64,000 bases of DNA from Algoriphagus aquaeductus (GTDB lineage: Bacteria; Bacteroidota; Bacteroidia; Cytophagales; Cyclobacteriaceae), in assembly GCF_003253485.1 (NCBI RefSeq), contig NZ_QKTX01000004.1:1-64000 (forward strand), written 5' to 3'. Shown piece after piece: positions 4,089-13,639 of the stretch. The notes beneath the pieces are model-generated. The model saw only the letters and a program-made list of their open reading frames with translations, searched no databases and was not told where the DNA came from. The first letter of the stretch is position 1. Every line of letters begins with the position of its first letter. Position numbers and translations under genes: made by a program.

Positions 4089-5303
4089 ATGAAACAGATT
4101 TTTGTCAAAAGTGGCATTTGGAAAAAACAAGGGTTGGTTTTGATCGAGTTCCCATTCGATCAAGAGCTTATAAAGCTCGTCAAAACCATTCCGAATATCC
4201 TGTGGAACGCCGGGAGAAAAGCCTGGATTCTTCCTTATCGAGACGAAACTTTGAACCAAATCTTGGACACTTTCAAGGGAAAAGCCTGGGTGGATTACAG
4301 TCAGTTCCAAAAAATATTACCCGAAGCGCTTCCTCCGGTTTTACCCAATCTAAGCCCCCACCTCACTCAGGAAATCGATGAATTCACCGCATGGATGCAA
4401 AACAGGCGCTATGCAGCATCTACAGTCCATACCTATTCACAGTGCCTGAGTTTGTTTTTCAGGTATCTCCAAAACAAAAATCCGGAAGAAATTACCAGCG
4501 TAGATTTGGAAAATTTTCATCAATCCTATATTCTTAAGAGAAAATACTCCGCTTCTTTCCAATCTCAGGTAATCAATGCGGTGAAATTGTATTTTTCGAC
4601 CAAACTAAATAGGAAACTCAACCCCGTCACAATCGAACGGCCAAGACAACCCAAGCTTTTACCCCATGTACTCAGCAAAGAAGACGTGAAACAGATCCTC
4701 GAAGCCCATACTAATATCAAGCATAAGACCATGCTGAGTCTCACGTATGCATGCGGACTGCGAAGAGGGGAACTGCTTGGACTGAAGCTAACTGACATTG
4801 ACTCGAAACGGGAACTCCTCCGAATCAATCAGGGCAAAGGGGCAAAAGACCGGATAGTGCCGATCAGTCCGAAGGTAATCGAGATGCTGAGGGAGTATTA
4901 CTTAGCAGAAAAGCACAGGGTATATTTATTTGAGGGGCTGGTAGCAGGACATCCTTATTCTGAAAAGAGCCTGGAAAATGTCATGAATCAAGCAGTGAAG
5001 AAAGCAGGACTTAAAGAAAAAGCTACCCTCCATTGGCTTCGACACTCCTATGCCACTCATCTGCATGAGGGAGGTACAGATCTAAGGCTTATCCAGGAAC
5101 TACTCGGCCACCGCAGTAGTAAAACAACCGAAATCTATACGCATGTTTCGACAAAATCTTTACAAAAGGTAAAATCACCGTTTGATGATTTATGGAAAAT
5201 AACCGCCACAAAATCTGGCCATTTATGGCGCTTAGCGACCCAAAAAAAAAACACTAAGCCCAAGTTTAAGGCGGTAATAAACAAGTTAGCATACATTAAA
5301 TGA
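4089..5303 (+). CDS. tyrosine recombinase, integron-integrase-like
   Basis: Tyrosine recombinase, 404 residues from the ATG at 4089 (an in-frame ATG at 4017 would add 24 residues). An extra N-terminal domain (about 1-80) precedes the SAM-like core-binding domain and catalytic domain. Catalytic residues are Arg225 (GLRRGEL), Lys250 (GKGAKDR), His315-x-x-Arg318 (HWLRHS), His341 (LLGHRS) and Tyr350 (EIYTHV). The segment after Tyr, YTHVSTKSLQKVKSPFDDL, resembles the IntI ending YTHVL...GVRSPLD. The IntI-specific insertion before HxxR is absent. It reads in the same direction as the cassettes. The final codons (LAYIK) and stop lie beyond the presumed crossover at 5285/5286, so they are cassette-derived. 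Confidence 0.9.
   Translation: MKQIFVKSGIWKKQGLVLIEFPFDQELIKLVKTIPNILWNAGRKAWILPYRDETLNQILDTFKGKAWVDYSQFQKILPEALPPVLPNLSPHLTQEIDEFTAWMQNRRYAASTVHTYSQCLSLFFRYLQNKNPEEITSVDLENFHQSYILKRKYSASFQSQVINAVKLYFSTKLNRKLNPVTIERPRQPKLLPHVLSKEDVKQILEAHTNIKHKTMLSLTYACGLRRGELLGLKLTDIDSKRELLRINQGKGAKDRIVPISPKVIEMLREYYLAEKHRVYLFEGLVAGHPYSEKSLENVMNQAVKKAGLKEKATLHWLRHSYATHLHEGGTDLRLIQELLGHRSSKTTEIYTHVSTKSLQKVKSPFDDLWKITATKSGHLWRLATQKKNTKPKFKAVINKLAYIK
5198..5294 (+). other. attI-like site inside the 3' end of the recombinase gene
   Basis: The first cassette boundary GTTAGCATAC sits at 5285-5294 and is exactly complementary to the left box of the first hairpin (5931-5940). To its left, AACCGCC (5201-5207) can pair with GGCGGT (5270-5275), and GCGCTTAG (5228-5235) with CTAAGC (5254-5259), giving an attC-like fold ending in AACAAGTTA. 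The site encodes the recombinase's C-terminal tail. It is the presumed insertion point for new cassettes; the fold is weaker than that of the downstream sites. Confidence 0.6.
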
Positions 5304-5917
5304 ACAGAAGCAAGATTTACAGTATCCTTTCATTTTTATTGCTAGTCATGGCAATTATCCAGGCTCCTTTATTCTATTACTACACCTTTGGAATGATAGC
5401 AATATTAATTATTGCTCCATATGTAGTCTTTGGATTTGGATTGACAATTTGGCTTCTGGTCATAATGGTTAAAAAATCAGATCAGATAAAAAGAACGCCC
5501 AAAATTATCCTTGGATTAACATTTTTAATTGGAAGCTTGACCTTGGTTTTTGGTGAATCGCTGATAGAAAAATTAGACTGGAGTTTAAGGAAAAAAGAAA
5601 GAGAAGAGATAATTGAATTAATAAAACAGGGCAAGATCCAACCAAATGGAGAATTTAATAATGGAATAGCAAAATTAAGCACTTGGAATTTCCCTCCGAT
5701 TTCTAATGGTGGAAATGAAATCTTAATTTATCAGTCAAGCGAAGGATTTTTTACAGTTAAATTTTTCATAAATAGAGGATTTTTAGATCATTATTCAGCA
5801 TTTATATATTCAGAAGATAAAGATGAAATAAAAGAAATAGAGGAAAGAATTACCTATTCAAATGGATTACACAAAAACAAAAAAATAGATAATAACTGGT
5901 ATAGAGTATCTTATTGA
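5300..5917 (+). CDS. hypothetical membrane protein (cassette 1)
   Basis: 205-residue protein of unknown family. Three hydrophobic segments are seen (about 10-28, 32-58 and 73-90), followed by a charged soluble part of about 110 residues (EKEREEIIELIKQGKI...). It has no recognised motif. The start ATG overlaps the recombinase stop (ATGA), so translation may be coupled to the recombinase. The coding region is strongly AT-rich compared with chromosomal genes in the window, consistent with acquisition. It is the only gene of the first cassette. Confidence 0.65.
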   Translation: MNRSKIYSILSFLLLVMAIIQAPLFYYYTFGMIAILIIAPYVVFGFGLTIWLLVIMVKKSDQIKRTPKIILGLTFLIGSLTLVFGESLIEKLDWSLRKKEREEIIELIKQGKIQPNGEFNNGIAKLSTWNFPPISNGGNEILIYQSSEGFFTVKFFINRGFLDHYSAFIYSEDKDEIKEIEERITYSNGLHKNKKIDNNWYRVSY

Positions 5918-5930
5918 AAAAAGGGAAAAC

Positions 5931-6067
5931 GTATGCTAACATCACCTTGGAAGACAGCGGGCGGTTCCGAGTAAATTGAAAGTTTAGTATCTTTAAGAAG
6001 TTAGGAGTAGGCTGGAAGAGAACGGCTCCGAATGCCCGCCGTCTCCAAGCTGAATCCCGTTACCTGC
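5931..6067 (+). other. attC-like site A
   Basis: Imperfect hairpin of 137 bases. The left box GTATGCTAAC (5931-5940) is complementary to 5285-5294. Arms such as TTGGAAGAC...GCGGGC pair with GCCCGCCGTCTCCAA on the right (about 6034-6049), with bulges. The right box GTTACCTGC at 6059-6067 starts the next cassette. Confidence 0.8.
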
Positions 6068-6095
6068 AAGCGTAGAACGACACAACATCGAGACA

Positions 6096-6983
6096 ATGAC
6101 CAAGAAAATAATCATCGGAATAACTATTTTAGCACTAACAATAACAGTATTTTCAATGGGACTTTTTGACAAATTATACGGCAAGACAAATCCTACACAA
6201 ACGACATCAAATTCTCAATCCAAAGTTGGACATCAAGAAGAATGGGAGTTTTATTTCAGTAACGTGAATGACAAGTTAGGTTCAATATATGTTAACCTTG
6301 GGCTTCGTAAAGTAGCCCCAATTGCAGACAAACCAAATGTTGTTTGGGTTTCTATCAAAATGAATAACCCAAGAGAAGACGGACTTTCATCACAAGAAGA
6401 AAGCGGTTTGTTGGGCGATATTGAAGATGCTTTGGTTGAGAAAATTATTTCTAAACATAACGCTATTTACGTTGGACGGCTTACATCAGCCGGTGACAGA
6501 GATTTATATTTTTATTTTGGTGACACAACACTTTACGATAAGACAATTTCAGAAGTTATGGTCGCTTATCCAAAATATCAATTTGACTTTGGTTCAAAGG
6601 AAGACAAAGAATGGGGTGGCTATTTTGACTTTCTCTATCCCTTACCGCAACAATTTCAAAGCATTCAAAACAGAAGAGTAATTGAACAATTAGAAAAAGG
6701 TGGTGACAACCTGACAAAAGAAAGAGAAGTATTTCATTGGATTTACTTTAAATCGGAAAGTGACCGAGAAATTTTTTTAGAGAAAATTAAAAATGATAAT
6801 TTTTCAATCGTTGACAAAGGAAGCGACAAATCTTATGGCGAGTTTGCTTACCGACTTCAACTAAAACGAGTTGACAAGGTTGATCAAAACAGCGTTGATG
6901 AATATGTTATTTATTTATGGAAACTAGCTAATGAAATTGGTGGTGATTATGACGGTTGGGAAACATCAATAGAAAAAGACTAA
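6096..6983 (+). CDS. DUF695 and RraB-like domain protein (cassette 2)
   Basis: 295 residues. An N-terminal hydrophobic segment (about 4-24) acts as membrane anchor or signal. Then comes a DUF695-like region (about 48-185: EWEFYFSNVND, later YPKYQFDFGSKEDKEWGGY). The C-terminal part (about 205-295: LTKEREVFHWIYF, then NEIGGDYDGWET) resembles the RraB fold, known in Escherichia coli as a protein inhibitor of RNase E. DUF695-RraB combinations occur in Bacteroidota; no molecular function is established for them. It is the single gene of an AT-rich cassette between sites A and B, with no promoter recognised. Confidence 0.75.
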   Translation: MTKKIIIGITILALTITVFSMGLFDKLYGKTNPTQTTSNSQSKVGHQEEWEFYFSNVNDKLGSIYVNLGLRKVAPIADKPNVVWVSIKMNNPREDGLSSQEESGLLGDIEDALVEKIISKHNAIYVGRLTSAGDRDLYFYFGDTTLYDKTISEVMVAYPKYQFDFGSKEDKEWGGYFDFLYPLPQQFQSIQNRRVIEQLEKGGDNLTKEREVFHWIYFKSESDREIFLEKIKNDNFSIVDKGSDKSYGEFAYRLQLKRVDKVDQNSVDEYVIYLWKLANEIGGDYDGWETSIEKD

Positions 6984-7006
6984 CTATGACGATAGACAAA
7001 ACGCCA

Positions 7007-7143
7007 GCAGGTAACAGCCGTTTTGCAAAAGCGGGGGTTTCGTGCTTCTATGACAGTGAAGTGCAAAATTCAAGCTTTGTGCTTCTAATGATGTTTAGTG
7101 CTGAAAATCCCCGCCTTCGCAAAGCGGCAAAACGTTATAAGCC
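7007..7143 (+). other. attC-like site B
   Basis: 137-base imperfect hairpin. The left box GCAGGTAAC (7007-7015) is the exact complement of GTTACCTGC at 6059-6067. The left arm GCCGTTTTGCAAAAGCGGGG pairs with CCCCGCCTTCGCAAAGCGGC on the right. The right side has an extra CAAAAC before GTTATAAGCC (7134-7143). This strand asymmetry is like the extrahelical and spacer bases of true attC sites. Confidence 0.88.
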
Positions 7144-7176
7144 ATTTTAGGACGACGCTACATAAAACAATAAAAC

Positions 7177-8907
7177 ATGGAAATCAAAGACATCTCAACT
7201 TTTTTTAAAGGCCCTTTGGAGAAATTGACAACATTAGTTGGAAACGAAGTTCAACAGACTTTTTCAAATCGCCTTTTGGAGTATCAAGTGGAAGAATATA
7301 AAAGGAATTTTTTCTCAAAAACAATTCTTCATAGAGCCGAGCCTAAACCACTCAATGAATTTTATCAACCATTATTCATAAGACTTCATAAGAAAAACAT
7401 AGAAGACAAAAGAGTTTCTACAGCATCAGCTAAAAAACTCCTGAATAAGTATAACTACATTACAATAATTGGAAGTGCTGGTAGCGGTAAAAGTACGATA
7501 GTTAAATACCTCTACACAAACTGCTTTAAAGAAGGATATAAAATTCCAATAAAAGTTGAATTAAGGTATTTGAATGAATTTAAAGGTTCAATTAACGACT
7601 ATATTTTCAATGAAATATTTCATTTTCAAAAACTTGGTTTTTCTAATTCAATTATTGATAGACTATTAAGTTCAGATGGTTTTGTGTTTTTCTTTGATGG
7701 ATATGATGAATTAAACTCAGCTATAAAATCTAAAACGACTAAAGACATAGATTCATTTGTTCAAAAATACCCATCAAACAAGTATGTTATAACTTCAAGA
7801 CCTTATACAAGTGTAGACCTCCTTCCTCTTTTCTCAAACTTTTATGTTTGTGACCTTGAACCTAATGAAATTGCATCTTTTGTTAAAAAACAAATTCCAG
7901 AATCTGAATCAGAATTAGCAGAGAAAATTATCAAGGCTATAAACAAGTCAGAGAATCGCTCTTACGGAACATTTCTGAGTAACCCTTTATTACTTTCAAT
8001 GTTCATATTGACTTTTCAATCATACTCTGACATACCTCAAAAGAGAAGTGAGTTTTATGACCAAGTGTTCGATACATTATTTTCAATTCACGATGCAGTA
8101 TCTAAACTTGCTTATGTTAGAGAAAAAACATCTGGACTTTCAAAAGACCAATTTGAAGAAATACTACAATTGTTTTCATTCCTATCTTATTTCGAAGAAA
8201 AATTCATTTTCCCTAGTAATTATCTAACAGATAAACTAGATATTATTAAGTCGAAAAAGAAAAATCTGACATTTGACAATGATAAATTCATTGAAGATTT
8301 ACAAGTTGCAATCGGAATTCTTAATAAAGAAGGGTTAGACTATACTTTTCCTCATAGGTCGTTGCAAGAATATTTTGGAGCATTATATATAAGCAAAGTT
8401 AGTTCTGATAACAAAAAAGTTTTATACGGCAAATTGAAATTAGAAATAGAAGAGAATCTAGGGAGTTTAATGTCTAAAGACCATTTTTATGGTTTGCTTG
8501 CTGAAATGGATTATAACAACCTAAGTTCACTTGTTTCAATTCCATTAATTGAAAGCATACATAATGAACTTAAACAAATTGAAGATATAACTGACAAAGT
8601 TGCTTACCAGTATTACGGCAAACTCTTACTACCTTTTTACATTTTATTAAAGTCACCGACAAATCATAAAGAAATTCACGAAGAATTGGTTGACAAAAAT
8701 ATAAGATATACCTTTTTTGGACATCGTAAAAACAGATTTGAAATGCCGAAAGATTTACCAAAAGAGATTTACGAATCAATGAATTTTAAACTTATGAAAA
8801 GTAAAGTTCTAAATTTTAAAAATTGCGGTGATAGAATCATTCAAGCATTAAGACAAACTATCATAGACAATGAAAAAAGTGACAGTGAAATAATTGGACT
8901 GATATAA
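7177..8907 (+). CDS. NACHT-domain NTPase (cassette 3)
   Basis: 576-residue STAND-type NTPase. Walker A is GSAGSGKS (99-106) and Walker B is FFFDGYDEL (171-179). A sensor-like TSRPY follows, and the NACHT/STAND winged-helix signature PHRSLQEYFGA lies at about 392-402. The N-terminal 90 residues could be an effector or oligomerisation domain; the C-terminal 170 residues are probably a helical sensor. Bacterial NACHT proteins (bNACHT) are established anti-phage proteins, so a defence role is plausible but inferred. It is the only gene in the cassette, starting 42 bases after the junction and ending 4 bases before site C. Codon and base use is very AT-rich. Confidence 0.85.
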   Translation: MEIKDISTFFKGPLEKLTTLVGNEVQQTFSNRLLEYQVEEYKRNFFSKTILHRAEPKPLNEFYQPLFIRLHKKNIEDKRVSTASAKKLLNKYNYITIIGSAGSGKSTIVKYLYTNCFKEGYKIPIKVELRYLNEFKGSINDYIFNEIFHFQKLGFSNSIIDRLLSSDGFVFFFDGYDELNSAIKSKTTKDIDSFVQKYPSNKYVITSRPYTSVDLLPLFSNFYVCDLEPNEIASFVKKQIPESESELAEKIIKAINKSENRSYGTFLSNPLLLSMFILTFQSYSDIPQKRSEFYDQVFDTLFSIHDAVSKLAYVREKTSGLSKDQFEEILQLFSFLSYFEEKFIFPSNYLTDKLDIIKSKKKNLTFDNDKFIEDLQVAIGILNKEGLDYTFPHRSLQEYFGALYISKVSSDNKKVLYGKLKLEIEENLGSLMSKDHFYGLLAEMDYNNLSSLVSIPLIESIHNELKQIEDITDKVAYQYYGKLLLPFYILLKSPTNHKEIHEELVDKNIRYTFFGHRKNRFEMPKDLPKEIYESMNFKLMKSKVLNFKNCGDRIIQALRQTIIDNEKSDSEIIGLI

Positions 8908-8911
8908 AAAC

Positions 8912-9049
8912 GGCTTATAACAGGCGTTTGGCTCAATGGCGGGTGAAGTGGTTAATTGAACATTCTACCTCGCATCAACTTTTGTGGTGTATTGACAGTT
9001 TTGTGCTCCGAAATCCGCCACTGCGCCAAGCGCCAAAACGTTACCTGCC
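8912..9049 (+). other. attC-like site C
   Basis: 138-base imperfect hairpin. The left box GGCTTATAAC (8912-8921) is the exact complement of GTTATAAGCC at 7134-7143. Left arm AGGCGTTTGGCTCAATGGCGG pairs with CCGCCACTGCGCCAAGCGCC. The right box GTTACCTGCC is at 9040-9049. Confidence 0.88.
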
Positions 9050-9070
9050 ATTTTAAAATAACAACTTCTA

Positions 9071-9931
9071 ATGATATACAAGGGACAGAATAACGAATTT
9101 ATTGAATTAACCGACCTTCAAAAAGGCAGTTCGTTATTTTTTGACAATACGGTTTCTTTTCCACTAACATTTGTTTGGATTAGAGGGCAAAAGTCCGAAA
9201 TAAATTTTGAGGGAATTAATTTAAACCTCAATAATAACTCTATTATCTGTCTTACATCTTTTCATAAAGTTGAATTCAATATAATAAAATCTGCAAGAGC
9301 TATAAAATTTAACAGAGAGTTTTATTGTGTCAAAGACCACAACAGTGAGGTAAGTTGTAAAGGTCTTTTATTTTATGGTGCAAATCAACTGCCATACTTT
9401 CAAATACCAGATGACGAAATGGAAAAGTTTGAAACATTTTGGCGAATGTTTCAAATTGAAATGCAGTCAAAAGACGACCTGCAATTAGAGATGCTTCAAA
9501 TGATGCTAAAAAGGTTTATCATACTATGTACCCGTATCTATAAAACACAAATGAATCTTACTAAATTAGAATTTAAAGAGGTAGATATTGTCAGAGAATT
9601 TCAATTTTTAGTAGAACAACACTTCAAAACAAAACATTCAGTTCAGGAATACGCAGACCTCTTAAATAAGTCTGTAAAAACCCTGGCAAATACTTTTTCA
9701 AAGGCTTCGGATAAAAGTCCTTTACAAATCATACACGAAAGAAAGGTTTTAGAAGCAAAGAGAATGCTTAGGTTCACGGATAAGCCTATAAAAGAAATAG
9801 CCTACGAACTTGGCTTTGAAGACATACAGACATTCAGCCGTTTTTTTAAAAAAATGGAAAGTCTAAGCCCTACCGATTTCAAAAAAATGCTTTTGGGAAG
9901 TATTGCCAACTCATCGGGAACGATGACCTAA
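9071..9931 (+). CDS. AraC-family transcriptional regulator (cassette 4)
   Basis: 286 residues. The N-terminal 150 residues form a cupin-like sensing domain typical of AraC-type regulators. The C-terminal 100 residues carry two helix-turn-helix motifs, the first around KSVKTLANTFSKASDKSP and the second around IKEIAYELGFEDIQTFSRFF, ending with the usual SPTDFKK. It probably activates the genes directly behind it, an AhpD-like protein, membrane protein, thioredoxin and OsmC, which suggests a reactive-compound or peroxide-related signal. Carrying its own regulator makes this cassette more self-sufficient than normal promoterless cassettes. Confidence 0.88.
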   Translation: MIYKGQNNEFIELTDLQKGSSLFFDNTVSFPLTFVWIRGQKSEINFEGINLNLNNNSIICLTSFHKVEFNIIKSARAIKFNREFYCVKDHNSEVSCKGLLFYGANQLPYFQIPDDEMEKFETFWRMFQIEMQSKDDLQLEMLQMMLKRFIILCTRIYKTQMNLTKLEFKEVDIVREFQFLVEQHFKTKHSVQEYADLLNKSVKTLANTFSKASDKSPLQIIHERKVLEAKRMLRFTDKPIKEIAYELGFEDIQTFSRFFKKMESLSPTDFKKMLLGSIANSSGTMT

Positions 9932-10000
9932 CATAACCCTCCTTAATCGCCCCATCTTTGCATCGTAATTAAATCATTAACATTTTAAAATTTAAAAACG

Positions 10001-10534
10001 ATGACAAAGTTCACTGTTCCTACCCGAGGAGAAGTATCGGAAAACAATCAAGCTATTTTTGATAACTTGCAAAAAGGCTTAGGATTTGTGCCAAATTTGT
10101 ATGCTTACTATGCCAAAAATGAAACGGCATTGGGCGATTATCTTGCTTTGCAAAATCGCAAATCAACACTCAAAGCCAAAGAGAGAGAAGTTATCAACTT
10201 GGTAACAAGCCAAATTAACGGTTGCCGTTATTGCCAATCGGCTCATACTGTTTTGGGCAAAATGAACGGATTCACGGATGAGCAGGTAATTGAAATGCGT
10301 AAAGGGTCTGCATCTTTTGATACTAAATTAAATGCTTTGGTGAAATTTACAGCCTCCGTGTTGGAAAATCGTGGAAGAGCAACCGAAGAAAGCAAGGATG
10401 CCTTTTTTGAAGCAGGTTACACAGAAGCCAATTTGATAGATGTGGTAATTGCAGTTGGTGATAAAACCATCAGTAATTACATACATAATGTGGTTGACTT
10501 TCCCATTGACTTTCCAATTGCCCCTGAGCTTTAA
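10001..10534 (+). CDS. carboxymuconolactone decarboxylase/AhpD-like protein (cassette 4)
   Basis: 177-residue all-helical protein of the CMD/AhpD superfamily. The redox motif is CRYCQSAHT (C-x-x-C-x-x-x-H) preceded by REVINLVTSQING, the arrangement of AhpD-like peroxidase-associated proteins. Such proteins use the CxxC pair and His to reduce peroxides or partner enzymes. It begins 69 bases after the AraC gene; an imperfect Bacteroidota -7-like sequence CATCTTTG lies at 9953-9960, so a regulated promoter here is possible. Context with thioredoxin and OsmC supports organic hydroperoxide or electrophile detoxification (inference). Confidence 0.85.
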   Translation: MTKFTVPTRGEVSENNQAIFDNLQKGLGFVPNLYAYYAKNETALGDYLALQNRKSTLKAKEREVINLVTSQINGCRYCQSAHTVLGKMNGFTDEQVIEMRKGSASFDTKLNALVKFTASVLENRGRATEESKDAFFEAGYTEANLIDVVIAVGDKTISNYIHNVVDFPIDFPIAPEL

Positions 10535-10560
10535 ATTATTAACTTTTAAAATTTTTCAAG

Positions 10561-10986
10561 ATGAACACAAATAAAATAAATTGGAAAAACGCCATTATTG
10601 GCGGCGTCTTAGGTACAATTGCCTTTGATATCATTGGTTTCTTTTTTACAGGAACTTGGTGGGATATACCCGGTCTTTTGGGTGAAAAAACAGGTTTAGG
10701 CTTTGCCTATGGAGTTTTTGGCCATTTTTCAAATGGAATTCTATTAGCTATTTTATATGCAGGCATAGCTCCATCTTTGTGGGGACCTACTTGGCTTAGA
10801 ACTCTCTTTTTTGTTACAGCCGAAACAGTTGCACTTGTTTGGTTTTTTATGTTTCCGCTATTAGGTGCGGGTATCGCAGGTACTAAAATGGCGGCAATTA
10901 TTCCACTTGTCTCTTTGGTGAGACACATAGCTTATGGGGTGCCTGTTTGGTATTTTGTTCATAAATTTCAAAATAAAGAAAATTAA
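10561..10986 (+). CDS. hypothetical membrane protein (cassette 4)
   Basis: 141 residues with four predicted membrane segments (about 10-30, 50-68, 78-100, 106-132). It resembles small integral membrane proteins often found near oxidative-stress genes, but no function is known. It begins 26 bases after the AhpD-like gene and ends 2 bases before the thioredoxin-like start, so it is part of the same transcript. Confidence 0.7.
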   Translation: MNTNKINWKNAIIGGVLGTIAFDIIGFFFTGTWWDIPGLLGEKTGLGFAYGVFGHFSNGILLAILYAGIAPSLWGPTWLRTLFFVTAETVALVWFFMFPLLGAGIAGTKMAAIIPLVSLVRHIAYGVPVWYFVHKFQNKEN

Positions 10987-10988
10987 AG

Positions 10989-11434
10989 ATGCCAAGTAAA
11001 ATAGTTATAGCATTTTCAGCCATCGCAATGGTGGCTGTTTATGCCTTTGCAAATCCAAAAGTGGATTTCAAAGCCGACACAGAAGAGGGTATTCAGTTCC
11101 ATAACGGAACTTGGGAAGAAGCCATACAGATTGCAAAAAAAGAAAACAAATTGATTTTTTTAAACATTTACGCCACTTGGTGTGACCTTGTAAGCAACTG
11201 AAAAAGAATACTTTTTCAAGTGCAGAAGTTGGAACATTTTACAATGAAAAATTTGTGAATGTGGCTCTTGATGGTGAGCAAGGTGAAGGCAAGATGCTAA
11301 TGCAAAAATATGCTCTTAGGAGTTTTCCTTCATTGCTTTTCATAGACGGAAACGGAAAAGTGGTTGGTCAAACTGTTGGTTATCATAACCCGAGTCAATT
11401 CCTTGAATTAGGTCAAATATTTTCAAAAAAGTAA
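10989..11434 (+). pseudogene. thioredoxin-fold protein, frameshifted at the active site (cassette 4)
   Basis: The first frame encodes a signal-like N-terminus and a thioredoxin-fold lead (FLNIYATWC), then runs into a stop at 11198-11200 after CDLVSN. If one G is restored after 11183 (TGT-GGA-CCT-TGT), the reading becomes ATWCGPCKQLKKN and stays open to TAA at 11432-11434, with the normal FPSLLFIDGNGKVVGQ segment. So a single-base deletion removes the CGPC redox motif. It is either a real inactivating mutation or a sequencing error. The intact form would be a periplasmic thiol-disulfide oxidoreductase of about 149 residues. Confidence 0.9.
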
Positions 11435-11437
11435 ATT

Positions 11438-11848
11438 ATGGCAACAGTAATCAAAATAAAAAACTTACCCGAAGGCTACCAAAGCATTATCACCAATGGC
11501 ACACATACCATAGTAGGTGATGAACCAGTAAAAAGTAAAGGAACTGATTTAGGTTTAAGTCCTTCCGAATTGGTATTGAGTGGATTGGCAATGTGCAAAG
11601 TAGCAACCGTTCGTTTTATTGCTCGAAAGAATAATTGGGGAATAGGCGAAGTAAGAGCAGAACTTTCACAAGAAGTTAAAAGGGACAGCAGTGGTTTAAA
11701 AACCAACATCAAAGTCGCTATTTATATTGAAGGTGATATTTCGCAGGAGCAAAAAGACGAACTACTTAAAGAAGCCAATGCCTGTTATATACATCGCCAA
11801 ATAATGGGAGAATGGAATATTGAACACGCCACCGAGTTGCAACAATAA
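11438..11848 (+). CDS. OsmC-family protein (cassette 4)
   Basis: 136-residue OsmC/Ohr-like protein. Seen are GTDLGLSPSELVLSGLAMC (about 35-53), with the first conserved cysteine in the GLAMCK helix, and a second Cys in ANACYIHRQI (about 115-124). The family reduces organic hydroperoxides with a reactive cysteine pair. It lies 3 bases after the thioredoxin pseudogene and ends 6 bases before site D, so it closes the multi-gene cassette. Confidence 0.85.
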   Translation: MATVIKIKNLPEGYQSIITNGTHTIVGDEPVKSKGTDLGLSPSELVLSGLAMCKVATVRFIARKNNWGIGEVRAELSQEVKRDSSGLKTNIKVAIYIEGDISQEQKDELLKEANACYIHRQIMGEWNIEHATELQQ

Positions 11849-11854
11849 ATAAAC

Positions 11855-11995
11855 GGCAGGTAACAGCACCTATACGCAAGTGGGGGTTCAGTGCTTCGGT
11901 TGACAAATTTTCGTATATTTGAACTGTAGTTCTTCGTAGGAAAGTTTAGTGCAAGAAAGCCCCCACCTGCGTATAGCTGCAAAACGTTAGCGGTA
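11855..11995 (+). other. attC-like site D
   Basis: 141-base imperfect hairpin. The left box GGCAGGTAAC (11855-11864) is the exact complement of GTTACCTGCC at 9040-9049. Arm CTATACGCAAGTGGGGG pairs with CCCCCACCTGCGTATAG. The right side again has extra GCAAAAC before GTTAGCGGTA (11986-11995). Confidence 0.9.
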
Positions 11996-12018
11996 ATTAA
12001 TAGAAACAAATAGTAGCA

Positions 12019-12942
12019 ATGGATAATCCAACAGCATTTATCTCATACTCACATGATGATGAGGAACATAAAGGATGGGTATTAAAACTTACAAACAGGT
12101 TGATAAGCAATGGCGTGAATGCGGTTCTAGACCAACACAATTTATCCTTAGGAGGCGACTTGCCAAGTTATATGGAAAACGGCCTTTCTAATGAAAATAG
12201 AATTATTTGTGTATGCAGTGAACGATACACTGAAAAAGCTAATAAAGGTCAAGGTGGTGTTGGTTACGAAAAGATGATTATGACCGGAGAACTCCTGCAA
12301 AACATAAACACAAAGTGGATTATACCAATTATTAGAAAAAATCCAGGATCCAAAGTACCCAAGTTTTTGACGGGAAAAATTTATGGGAACTTTAACAACG
12401 ATGATTCATTTGAGCACGAATATGAAAAGCTTCTAAGAGAGCTTTTAAATATCCCGCTCCACCCTAAACCTAAACTAGGTCAAAGCCCCTTTATCACAAT
12501 AAAGGAAACTGGAAGAATAATTTTCAAACCTAAATCTGAAAAATATCACTCCCCAGCCTACTCAGGTATTGTCAAATTTGACTATTCAAATAATAACGGG
12601 AGCTATTCAATAGGAGAAGGTGATTTATTGTTTGAAACAAAATGGTCTGGCGCAGGTGCAGACTCAATCCATGCCTATACTGATTCATCATCAATTGATT
12701 GTCTGGCATTAGTCACAAAACATGAAAAGATTGAGGATATAATCAATGTCGATGAATTTGATTACTCATCAAGAGTGAGAACACCTGCTATTGGTGACAT
12801 TGTGATATGGCAGAACCGTAATGGTTACTTCGCTGCAACACAAATAATTGACGTAAAACATATGAGAAGAAATGCTGACTTTGATGAGCTGACATTTAAA
12901 TACGTAATCTTAACTAATGCAACATCTGACTTTTCAAAATAA
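12019..12942 (+). CDS. SEFIR-domain protein (cassette 5)
   Basis: 307 residues. The N-terminal domain (about 1-150) begins TAFISYSHDDEEHKGWV and contains VLDQHNLSLGGDLPSYME and ICVCSERY, matching the SEFIR branch of the TIR-like superfamily. The C-terminal half (about 155-307) is of unknown family, with repeated aromatic/glycine segments. SEFIR and TIR domains in bacteria occur in immune and signalling proteins, several of which hydrolyse NAD+ or mediate assembly. A defence role here is inferred from family and cassette context. It ends 2 bases before site E. Confidence 0.82.
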   Translation: MDNPTAFISYSHDDEEHKGWVLKLTNRLISNGVNAVLDQHNLSLGGDLPSYMENGLSNENRIICVCSERYTEKANKGQGGVGYEKMIMTGELLQNINTKWIIPIIRKNPGSKVPKFLTGKIYGNFNNDDSFEHEYEKLLRELLNIPLHPKPKLGQSPFITIKETGRIIFKPKSEKYHSPAYSGIVKFDYSNNNGSYSIGEGDLLFETKWSGAGADSIHAYTDSSSIDCLALVTKHEKIEDIINVDEFDYSSRVRTPAIGDIVIWQNRNGYFAATQIIDVKHMRRNADFDELTFKYVILTNATSDFSK

Positions 12943-12944
12943 AA

Positions 12945-13082
12945 TACCGCTAACAGCACCTAAGAAAACATGGGGCGGACAGTGGTATCTTCAAGGTTCA
13001 TTCTTTGTAAGTACCTTTGTCATGGCAGACAGGTAATCGCTTCGAAAGCCCCACGTTTCTTAGCTGCAAACCGTTAGCGGTC
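12945..13082 (+). other. attC-like site E
   Basis: 138-base imperfect hairpin. The left box TACCGCTAAC (12945-12954) is the exact complement of GTTAGCGGTA at 11986-11995. Arm CCTAAGAAAACATGGGG pairs with CCCCACGTTTCTTAG. The right box GTTAGCGGTC lies at 13073-13082. Confidence 0.9.
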
Positions 13083-13143
13083 ATGCTATGACGACAGTGC
13101 AAACTCAAACGGACAAGCATAAAACAAACGAAAATCACAAACA

Positions 13144-13404
13144 ATGGCAAAACTTTTCTTCTCACGATACACTATTACATCGGGCGGACAATACACCGAC
13201 AAGTTTGACTTTCTTTTGAACGGTTTAAAGAACGAAGCAAGCACAACTTACCGCAGCTATGTGTATCGCTTTTTTGACACAGAAGTTCTTGAGGTTATTG
13301 AAAAATATTGGGACAAAGGGATCGAGTGCAATTTACAAACTAGGAGTTGGCTCATAGTTGGCTCAGTTGGCTCACAATGGGCTCAAGGTTGGCTCAAAGG
13401 ATAA
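13144..13404 (+). pseudogene. truncated hypothetical gene (cassette 6)
   Basis: An 86-residue open frame starts MAKLFFSRYTITSGGQYTD and looks protein-like for about 65 residues (..YRFFDTEVLEVIEKYWDKG). It then enters a short tandem repeat of TTGGCTCA words (13347-13400) that translates to a low-quality tail. The left box of the following site (13431-13439) does not complement this cassette's left end. The sequence is therefore best read as a 5' gene fragment joined to another cassette's end. The family is unrecognised. Confidence 0.5.
13347..13400 (+). repeat. TTGGCTCA short tandem repeat
   Basis: At least four copies of TTGGCTCA, separated by 1-12 bases, occur between 13347 and 13400, with a variant GGGCTCA. 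They lie at the suspected rearrangement point of cassette 6. Confidence 0.6.
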
Positions 13405-13430
13405 AACAAATGAGCAGAAAAGAACACCGA

Positions 13431-13570
13431 AGCGATAACATCACCTATACGCAAGCAAGGGTTTCGTGCTTCGTAGGACAGGAAAGTGGAGAATTTAAAG
13501 TTCAGTTCTTCGTAGGAAGTTCAGTGGTAAAATGCCCTGCCTGCGTATAGCTGCAAACCTTTACCAGCAA
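13431..13570 (+). other. attC-like site F, right box mutated
   Basis: 140-base imperfect hairpin closely similar to site D: CTATACGCAAGCAAGGG pairs with CCCTGCCTGCGTATAG. The left box GCGATAAC does not complement the start of its own cassette (GTTAGCGGTC, 13073). The right box reads CTTTACCAGC instead of cGTTA, so the presumed cleavage G is T at 13560. The site is probably inactive. Confidence 0.8.
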
Positions 13571-13639
13571 TGTTAGAAGACCACACAACCACCTAAAACG
13601 ACTGGTAAATGCTTGACAAAACCAAAACTTGCAATTTTT

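Follow-up and report, generated by a model that had tools for sequence, protein, structure and literature searches.

An integron-like cassette array in Algoriphagus aquaeductus adjoins a tyrosine recombinase that lacks the IntI-specific domain

The window examined here comprises 64,000 nucleotides (nt) at the start of contig C4 (NZ_QKTX01000004.1) in the 4.9-Mb genome of Algoriphagus aquaeductus, a member of the Bacteroidota. It carries a row of gene cassettes and six mutually related hairpin sites (A to F), all downstream of the tyrosine recombinase P0001, with the row on the strand of the recombinase. With a probability of roughly 0.83, this is an integron-like platform: a recombinase that lacks the IntI-specific domain would move circular cassettes via a folded single strand. 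The constituents of the locus, in window positions, are as follows.

4089–5303, forward strand: tyrosine recombinase P0001, 404 amino acids; conservation extends to 5192 (KSPFDDL); a small extra domain occupies residues 1 to about 80, and the recombinase proper residues 94–368
5193–5294, forward strand: attI-like platform, AATAAACAA, then GTTAGCATAC, which is the start of cassette 1 and lies 93 nt after the conserved recombinase end
5285–6058, forward strand: cassette 1; gene at 5300–5917 for a membrane-like protein (judged by eye) without assigned function
5926–6072, forward strand: hairpin site A; left box 5931–5940, right box from 6059
6059–7133, forward strand: cassette 2; DUF695 and RraB-like protein at 6096–6983
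6998–7147, forward strand: hairpin site B; left box 7007–7015, right box from 7134
7134–9039, forward strand: cassette 3; NACHT/STAND NTPase at 7177–8907
8906–9053, forward strand: hairpin site C; left box 8912–8921, right box from 9040
9040–11985, forward strand: cassette 4; AraC-type regulator at 9071–9931, AhpD-like protein at 10001–10534, OsmC-like protein at 11438–11848; further genes are DUF2938-like (10561–10986, below cut-off) and thioredoxin-like (in two frames)
11850–12000, forward strand: hairpin site D; left box 11855–11864, right box from 11986
11986–13072, forward strand: cassette 5; TIR/SEFIR protein of the bSEFIR defence family at 12019–12942
12940–13088, forward strand: hairpin site E; left box 12945–12954, right box from 13073
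13073–13560, forward strand: degenerate cassette 6, whose start does not match its terminal site
13425–13580, forward strand: hairpin site F, the last site of the array; right box CTTTA in place of GTTA

When an integron cassette is excised as a circle, its start comes to lie opposite the left box of its terminal site. The cassettes that start with GTTA at 5285, 6059, 7134, 9040, and 11986 match their own left boxes exactly, as complementary sequence, over 10, 9, 10, 10, and 10 nt, respectively, precisely where a sequence-only reading of this DNA had placed the five matches. Cassette 6 (start at 13073) shares a run of only 4 nt with the left box of site F, which leaves five of the six window cassettes with a match, and it is read as a putative fusion of two cassettes. 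The same reading had called chance agreement implausible, and permutation bears this out. Among neighboring site pairs located by a covariance model, with a match defined as a run of at least 8 nt, 50 of 75 match in a first set of loci and 68 of 103 in a second set (40 stretches of other genomes, outside the model training), against permutation means of 2.35 (2000 permutations) and 2.63, respectively, and a maximum of 9 in both cases. Run lengths in the pooled sets (118/178 pairs matching) are bimodal with a sharp stop: 115 of the 178 pairs have 9 or 10 matching nt, and none has more. As a control, the left box was compared with the site's own right end, which gave 4/75 and 4/103 matches; the boxes of an integrated site mostly keep 3–6 matching nt, as opposed to 9–10 for the cassette's own start. 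The corresponding match in a class 1 integron, for the one cassette checked, is 6 nt. Several sites in L048, L085, L092, and L115 carry an identical left-box flank (GTGTGTGCC, or GTTGAACTGACA in reverse complement) and do not pass the own-start test; these are perhaps miniature mobile derivatives.

Sites A to F are each about 150 nt long and follow one pattern: the left box has YAAC at its end, a single unpaired A and roughly 19 stem pairs come next, and the opposite side carries a five-nt spacer, mostly AAA[AC]C, followed by GTTR. Their fold, on which the sequence-only reading had staked its proposal beforehand, is far better than that of shuffled sequence or slid structures. Across sites A to F, 14 of the 23 stem pairs are changed on both sides and 91.3% of the cells pair, values that none of 500 shuffles reaches. 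A larger set of 69 sites from 24 sources, which is also the training set of model R2, shows 398 cells changed on both sides versus 117 by shuffling, a covariation score of 0.673 versus 0.156, and pairing in 92.0% of the cells versus 62.3%. Among 240 sites, these 69 included, GTTR is present in 221, while the full GTTRRRY and RYYYAAC boxes are each found in 12.

The lower strand, folded as DNA, is computed to be more stable in five of the six window sites, in 188/234 pairs of site arms, and in 155/231 whole sites (117/231 for shuffled whole sites). The stem also contains a near-invariant mismatch on the upper strand, an A in 69/69 sites facing a C in 67/69, which corresponds to a G-T pair in the lower strand; on this account, and by computed stability, the lower strand is likely to be the one used. 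Mirror matches on the other strand were removed by overlap before sites were counted (83 to 78 rows in one scan, none in the two locus sets).

These properties bear on the strongest competing explanation, which retains the platform and the recombinase and has the sites recombine double-stranded or as extruded cruciforms, in two ordinary exchanges as at Xer sites, with the hairpin acting as a binding scaffold. Such a route would suit an enzyme with a plain Xer/XerA core and without the IntI block that, according to excerpts of PMC4792948, stops the second exchange. It is nevertheless improbable: the two boxes of a site, separated by a median of about 119 nt, can pair only in a folded strand, the strand bias extends to 188 of the 234 pairs of arms, and the contrast between 3–6 matching nt within an integrated site and 9–10 nt at the cassette's own start does not sit well with it.

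The position of the sites relative to the recombinase is strict. All 95 sites in 28 loci of the first set lie downstream of the recombinase on the same strand (the recombinase of L086 is short, and those of L052 and L085 are fragments), and ten further sites, in L092 and L094, are on the other strand, next to distant recombinases that lack the N-terminal domain. In the second set, 72 of 72 sites next to long-type recombinases are again downstream on the same strand. A second, shorter lineage (L123–L142) lacks the N-terminal domain and is mostly divergent from its array: 35 sites are upstream and on the opposite strand. Another 17 sites assigned to the short type are downstream, of which L145, with a split recombinase copy, contributes 16. 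The first cassette starts 26–115 nt after the recombinase and matches the first left box over 9–10 nt in 20 of the 28 arrays, and a looser search finds such a start in 27, in some cases at a distance, probably through a missed site.

The proposed tie between hairpins and such recombinases also withstands comparison with control loci. No site was found at E values up to 0.1 in 19 stretches (237 kb) around XerC/XerD-like recombinases of these genomes, the twentieth control stretch (L102) having been dropped for overlapping an array, as opposed to 105 sites in 47 stretches, most of them around relatives of the window recombinase; because a few of the 47 carry other recombinases, they do not contrast cleanly with the controls. 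Among loci without sites, the contigs of L004–L006, L077, and L079–L083 extend no more than 1.2 kb past the recombinase. Four genomes of the genus (L087–L090) share a similar broken copy of the recombinase, with no sites in 9–12 kb.

A search of Bacteroidota genomes for the same site type, which the sequence-only reading had proposed, found sites by the covariance model (E 1e-6) in 180 of 395 sampled genomes of the phylum. With the recombinase called at E 1e-35, 107 genomes have both, 19 the recombinase only, 73 sites only, and 196 neither. The A. aquaeductus genome itself has two lone sites outside the array (G000:C1:376395-376542 and G000:C4:235950-236096), neither with an own-start match of at least 7 nt within 1.5 kb. 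Sites therefore also occur away from a detected recombinase. Lone sites and site-only genomes are what would be seen if the hairpins were spreading miniature elements or repeats and the recombinase a bystander, as are the recurring sites with the same left flank that fail the own-start test. This explanation is very unlikely in view of the strict strand and side of the sites, their absence near other recombinases, the cassette-specific own-start match, and cassettes shared between genomes with exact ends. Least probable of all, the general likeness to attC might mean that these are ordinary integron cassettes on which a classical IntI encoded elsewhere acts in trans, but no protein of the genome exceeds the IntI cut-off, the site model finds nothing in one class 1 integron stretch with two cassettes, GTTRRRY is confined to 12/240 sites, and the attI-like start adjoins these recombinases.

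The nearest named relatives of the window recombinase are from Algoriphagus (Bacteroidota). Residues R225, K250, H315, R318, H341, and Y350, which we take to be catalytic, are invariant in 16 aligned rows (alignment A4). The protein scores 192.4 bits against the integron integrase model TIGR02249 (cut-off 265), and the match skips profile positions 178–231; likewise, none of the 21 relatives aligned with IntI1 has residues in a 31-column block of that protein, so the insertion that the sequence-only reading reported missing is indeed absent. The best NCBIfam match is NF040815, “site-specific tyrosine recombinase/integron integrase,” with 208.2 bits where the cut-off is 220. A quick tree of 100 proteins places 70 Bacteroidota recombinases on one side of a branch (Shimodaira–Hasegawa-like approximate likelihood-ratio test, SH-aLRT, 92), next to nine IntI (90) and apart from 19 XerC/XerD-like controls (96). 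This placement supports the idea of a separate recombinase branch with integron-like cassettes, within the limits of a quick method with SH-aLRT support only, of some long-branched rows, and of an IntI sample in which eight of nine are IntI1-like. L081, L083, L085, L052, L091–L094, L087–L090, L009, L080, L145, and L050 were left out beforehand on grounds of stops, fragments, truncation, or being other recombinases.

The KSPFDDL ending singled out in the sequence-only reading is the conserved end of the relatives, but it is not where the window protein stops: the stop of the relatives is missing, and translation runs 36 residues further, through attI into cassette 1. With this abnormal C-terminus, the window copy may be impaired. 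The N-terminal domain is modelled confidently by AlphaFold2 (mean predicted local distance difference test score of 92.1). A fold search with the whole recombinase is dominated by the recombinase core; with the domain alone, it returns a weak likeness to domains of XPB and SMARCAL1, tied with eIF1. No family is named for the domain, because these matches are tied and middling, and the XPB/SMARCAL1 (HARP) likeness of the predicted structure is a lead only.

Variation of cassettes between genomes, which formed part of the proposal from the outset, is also found: cassettes recur with exact or near-exact ends in different neighborhoods. Cassette 1 is 92.2% identical to a stretch in L167 over 5285–6069, with no further match in the 600-nt flanks. 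For cassette 2, identity is 84.9% to L166 over 6059–7136, 91.1% to L165 over 6059–7012 (where the L165 contig ends), and 87.6% to a cassette in L059. Cassette 5 matches L164 at 97.3% identity over 11939–12955; this match begins inside site D and is thus not cassette-exact. A 1.05-kb cassette is first, by coordinates, in L056, L146, and L124, whose recombinases belong to different lineages; its copies are 96.7–98.3% identical, with no downstream match among the three genomes and an upstream match only between L056 and L146 (104 nt, 76%). The protein that it encodes is Lnu(H)-like (452.6 bits, against a cut-off of 540), and the full 1052 nt of the cassette share 99.8% identity with an lnu(I) stretch on a Riemerella anatipestifer plasmid. 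The metagenome contigs L004 and L006 end exactly at ATAAATAAGTT (GTT) of attI, as if the next cassette varied in the population. Searches found no match for site D in phage records and none for cassette 2 in plasmids.

The genes carried by the window cassettes include likely anti-phage functions. The cassette 5 protein (12019–12942) matches bSEFIR at an E value of 3.5e-73 and is the only strong hit among the defence-system models, the NACHT protein of cassette 3 (7177–8907) matching weakly; both cassettes are likely to hold anti-phage genes. The thioredoxin-like gene of cassette 4 (10989–11434) seems, by eye, to be split into two frames. The window has no Rfam match at gathering thresholds, and no tRNA was found there.

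Several observations weigh against the integron-like platform. The system is known here from sequence alone, and the choice of the lower strand rests on computed folding. Sixty of the 178 neighboring pairs lack the own-start match; some of these span missed sites, and others are unexplained. On a Chryseobacterium plasmid, the match is seen in only one of five neighboring pairs. Two of five covariation measures on the 69 sites are not above shuffles, namely pairs with change on both sides (342/500 shuffles as high) and further pair types (76/500). The long-type recombinases L075, L076, and L155 have no sites in the stretch read (9–12 kb for L075 and L076), and neither do 6 of 20 short-recombinase stretches (L128, L135, L136, L137, L140, and L141). 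Of the sampled genomes, 73/395 have sites and no recombinase at the threshold used, and 19 show the reverse. The window recombinase, finally, may be an impaired copy. As a separate observation, L075 and L076 come from one 9-Mb genome with two long-type recombinases and no detectable sites within 12 kb downstream.

If the locus is an integron-like platform, its working can be pictured as follows. In the excised circle, the first 9–10 nt of the cassette would close the hairpin, with the left box paired to the right box. The recombinase would cut the lower strand near the G of GTT and join it to attI, and replication would then resolve the junction, so that the newest cassette ends up first. The N-terminal domain would likely help to recognize the folded site, where IntI uses its own insertion. 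The enzyme family is likely to move these cassettes, and the notion of the sequence-only reading that the window array is driven by its recombinase presumably holds. As read from sequence, the system functions like an integron, with recombination by this enzyme, single-strand use, and replicative resolution as the probable steps; it is not an integron by strict definition, because the IntI block is absent and the GTTRRRY box is rare.

In classical integrons, intI is divergent from its array, whereas recombinases of the window lineage point the same way as their cassettes; the shorter lineage is mostly divergent. Classical integrons also possess a cassette promoter, Pc, and an integrase under SOS control. 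Promoter and terminator scans here were not above shuffles (28 sigma-70-type promoters versus 28.6, with a model that does not cover Bacteroidota promoters). Further differences are the missing IntI-specific block, the extra N-terminal domain of one lineage, a box of 9–10 nt that is rarely GTTRRRY, spacers of 1 versus 5 nt, and the near-invariant A-C mismatch. Shared with classical integrons are (i) the one-orientation array, (ii) the attI-like site by the integrase, (iii) the hairpin site at each cassette end, (iv) the match of cassette start to left box, (v) the GTTR core, (vi) the lower-strand preference described in excerpts of PMC4792948 and here seen by computed stability, and (vii) arrays without integrase, the clusters of attC sites lacking integron-integrases (CALINs) mentioned in parts of PMC9024848. 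The archaeal XerA and bacterial XerC/XerD recombinases have the same core; XerC and XerD differ in that the 19 controls are set apart in the tree and lack such sites in their surroundings. XerCD, which integrates the CTX phage, is a tyrosine recombinase that has no I2-like domain and works on a folded single strand (PMC4792948, in part); this case differs in having no cassettes, no platform, and a recombinase borrowed from the host.

Resistance genes on plasmids stand in cassettes of the same kind. A Bacteroides thetaiotaomicron plasmid holds aadS, ere(D), and tet(X2) as three neighboring cassettes with 10-nt matches, and a 4.8-kb Riemerella plasmid has an erm(F) cassette with a 9-nt match. 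Across seven plasmid stretches scanned together, 9 of 14 neighboring pairs match. Riemerella pRCAD0416RA-1 has a match in 9 of 11 intervals, including two tet(X), one lnu(I), one estT, and two phosphotransferases, and none in its ere(D) and blaOXA intervals. The Chryseobacterium plasmid encodes a 50.6% identical recombinase with sites downstream. Excerpts of PMC4481100 describe a Riemerella multiresistance region with the same kinds of genes (ermFU, aadS, and ereD), a near-identical 199-bp junction, and a 217-bp repeat around ereD, from which its authors infer several recombination events and propose an undiscovered CTnDOT-like element. Compared by description, the genes stand here, on other plasmids, in hairpin-bounded cassettes.

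No description of such a system was found in the full-text literature, with preprints and most subscription papers outside the scope of the search. It appears reasonably probable that a second kind of integron extends across the phylum, in which recombinases from a sister lineage of IntI, devoid of I2, capture folded single-stranded cassettes, such that capture either predates I2 or arose apart, and that this system also assembled the Bacteroidota resistance clusters (tet(X), erm(F), aadS, ere(D), estT, and lnu) now on plasmids of animal and human bacteria. The cassette system offers a possible route by which tet(X), aadS, ere(D), estT, and lnu(I) became neighbors on plasmids. It may further close a gap in the Bacteroidetes, given sites in 180 of 395 sampled genomes: the sections of PMC9024848 on IntegronFinder 2 name one complete integron in the Bacteroidetes proper, that of Salinibacter, and reviews count Bacteroidota among the phyla with integrons (PMC8618304, in part). 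The IntI-specific domain is treated as necessary for integron recombination in parts of PMC9668308, and how I2 could be selected before attC sites existed is called “a chicken-egg paradox” in PMC4792948. A cassette system without the IntI domain, beside IntI in the tree, makes that question testable.

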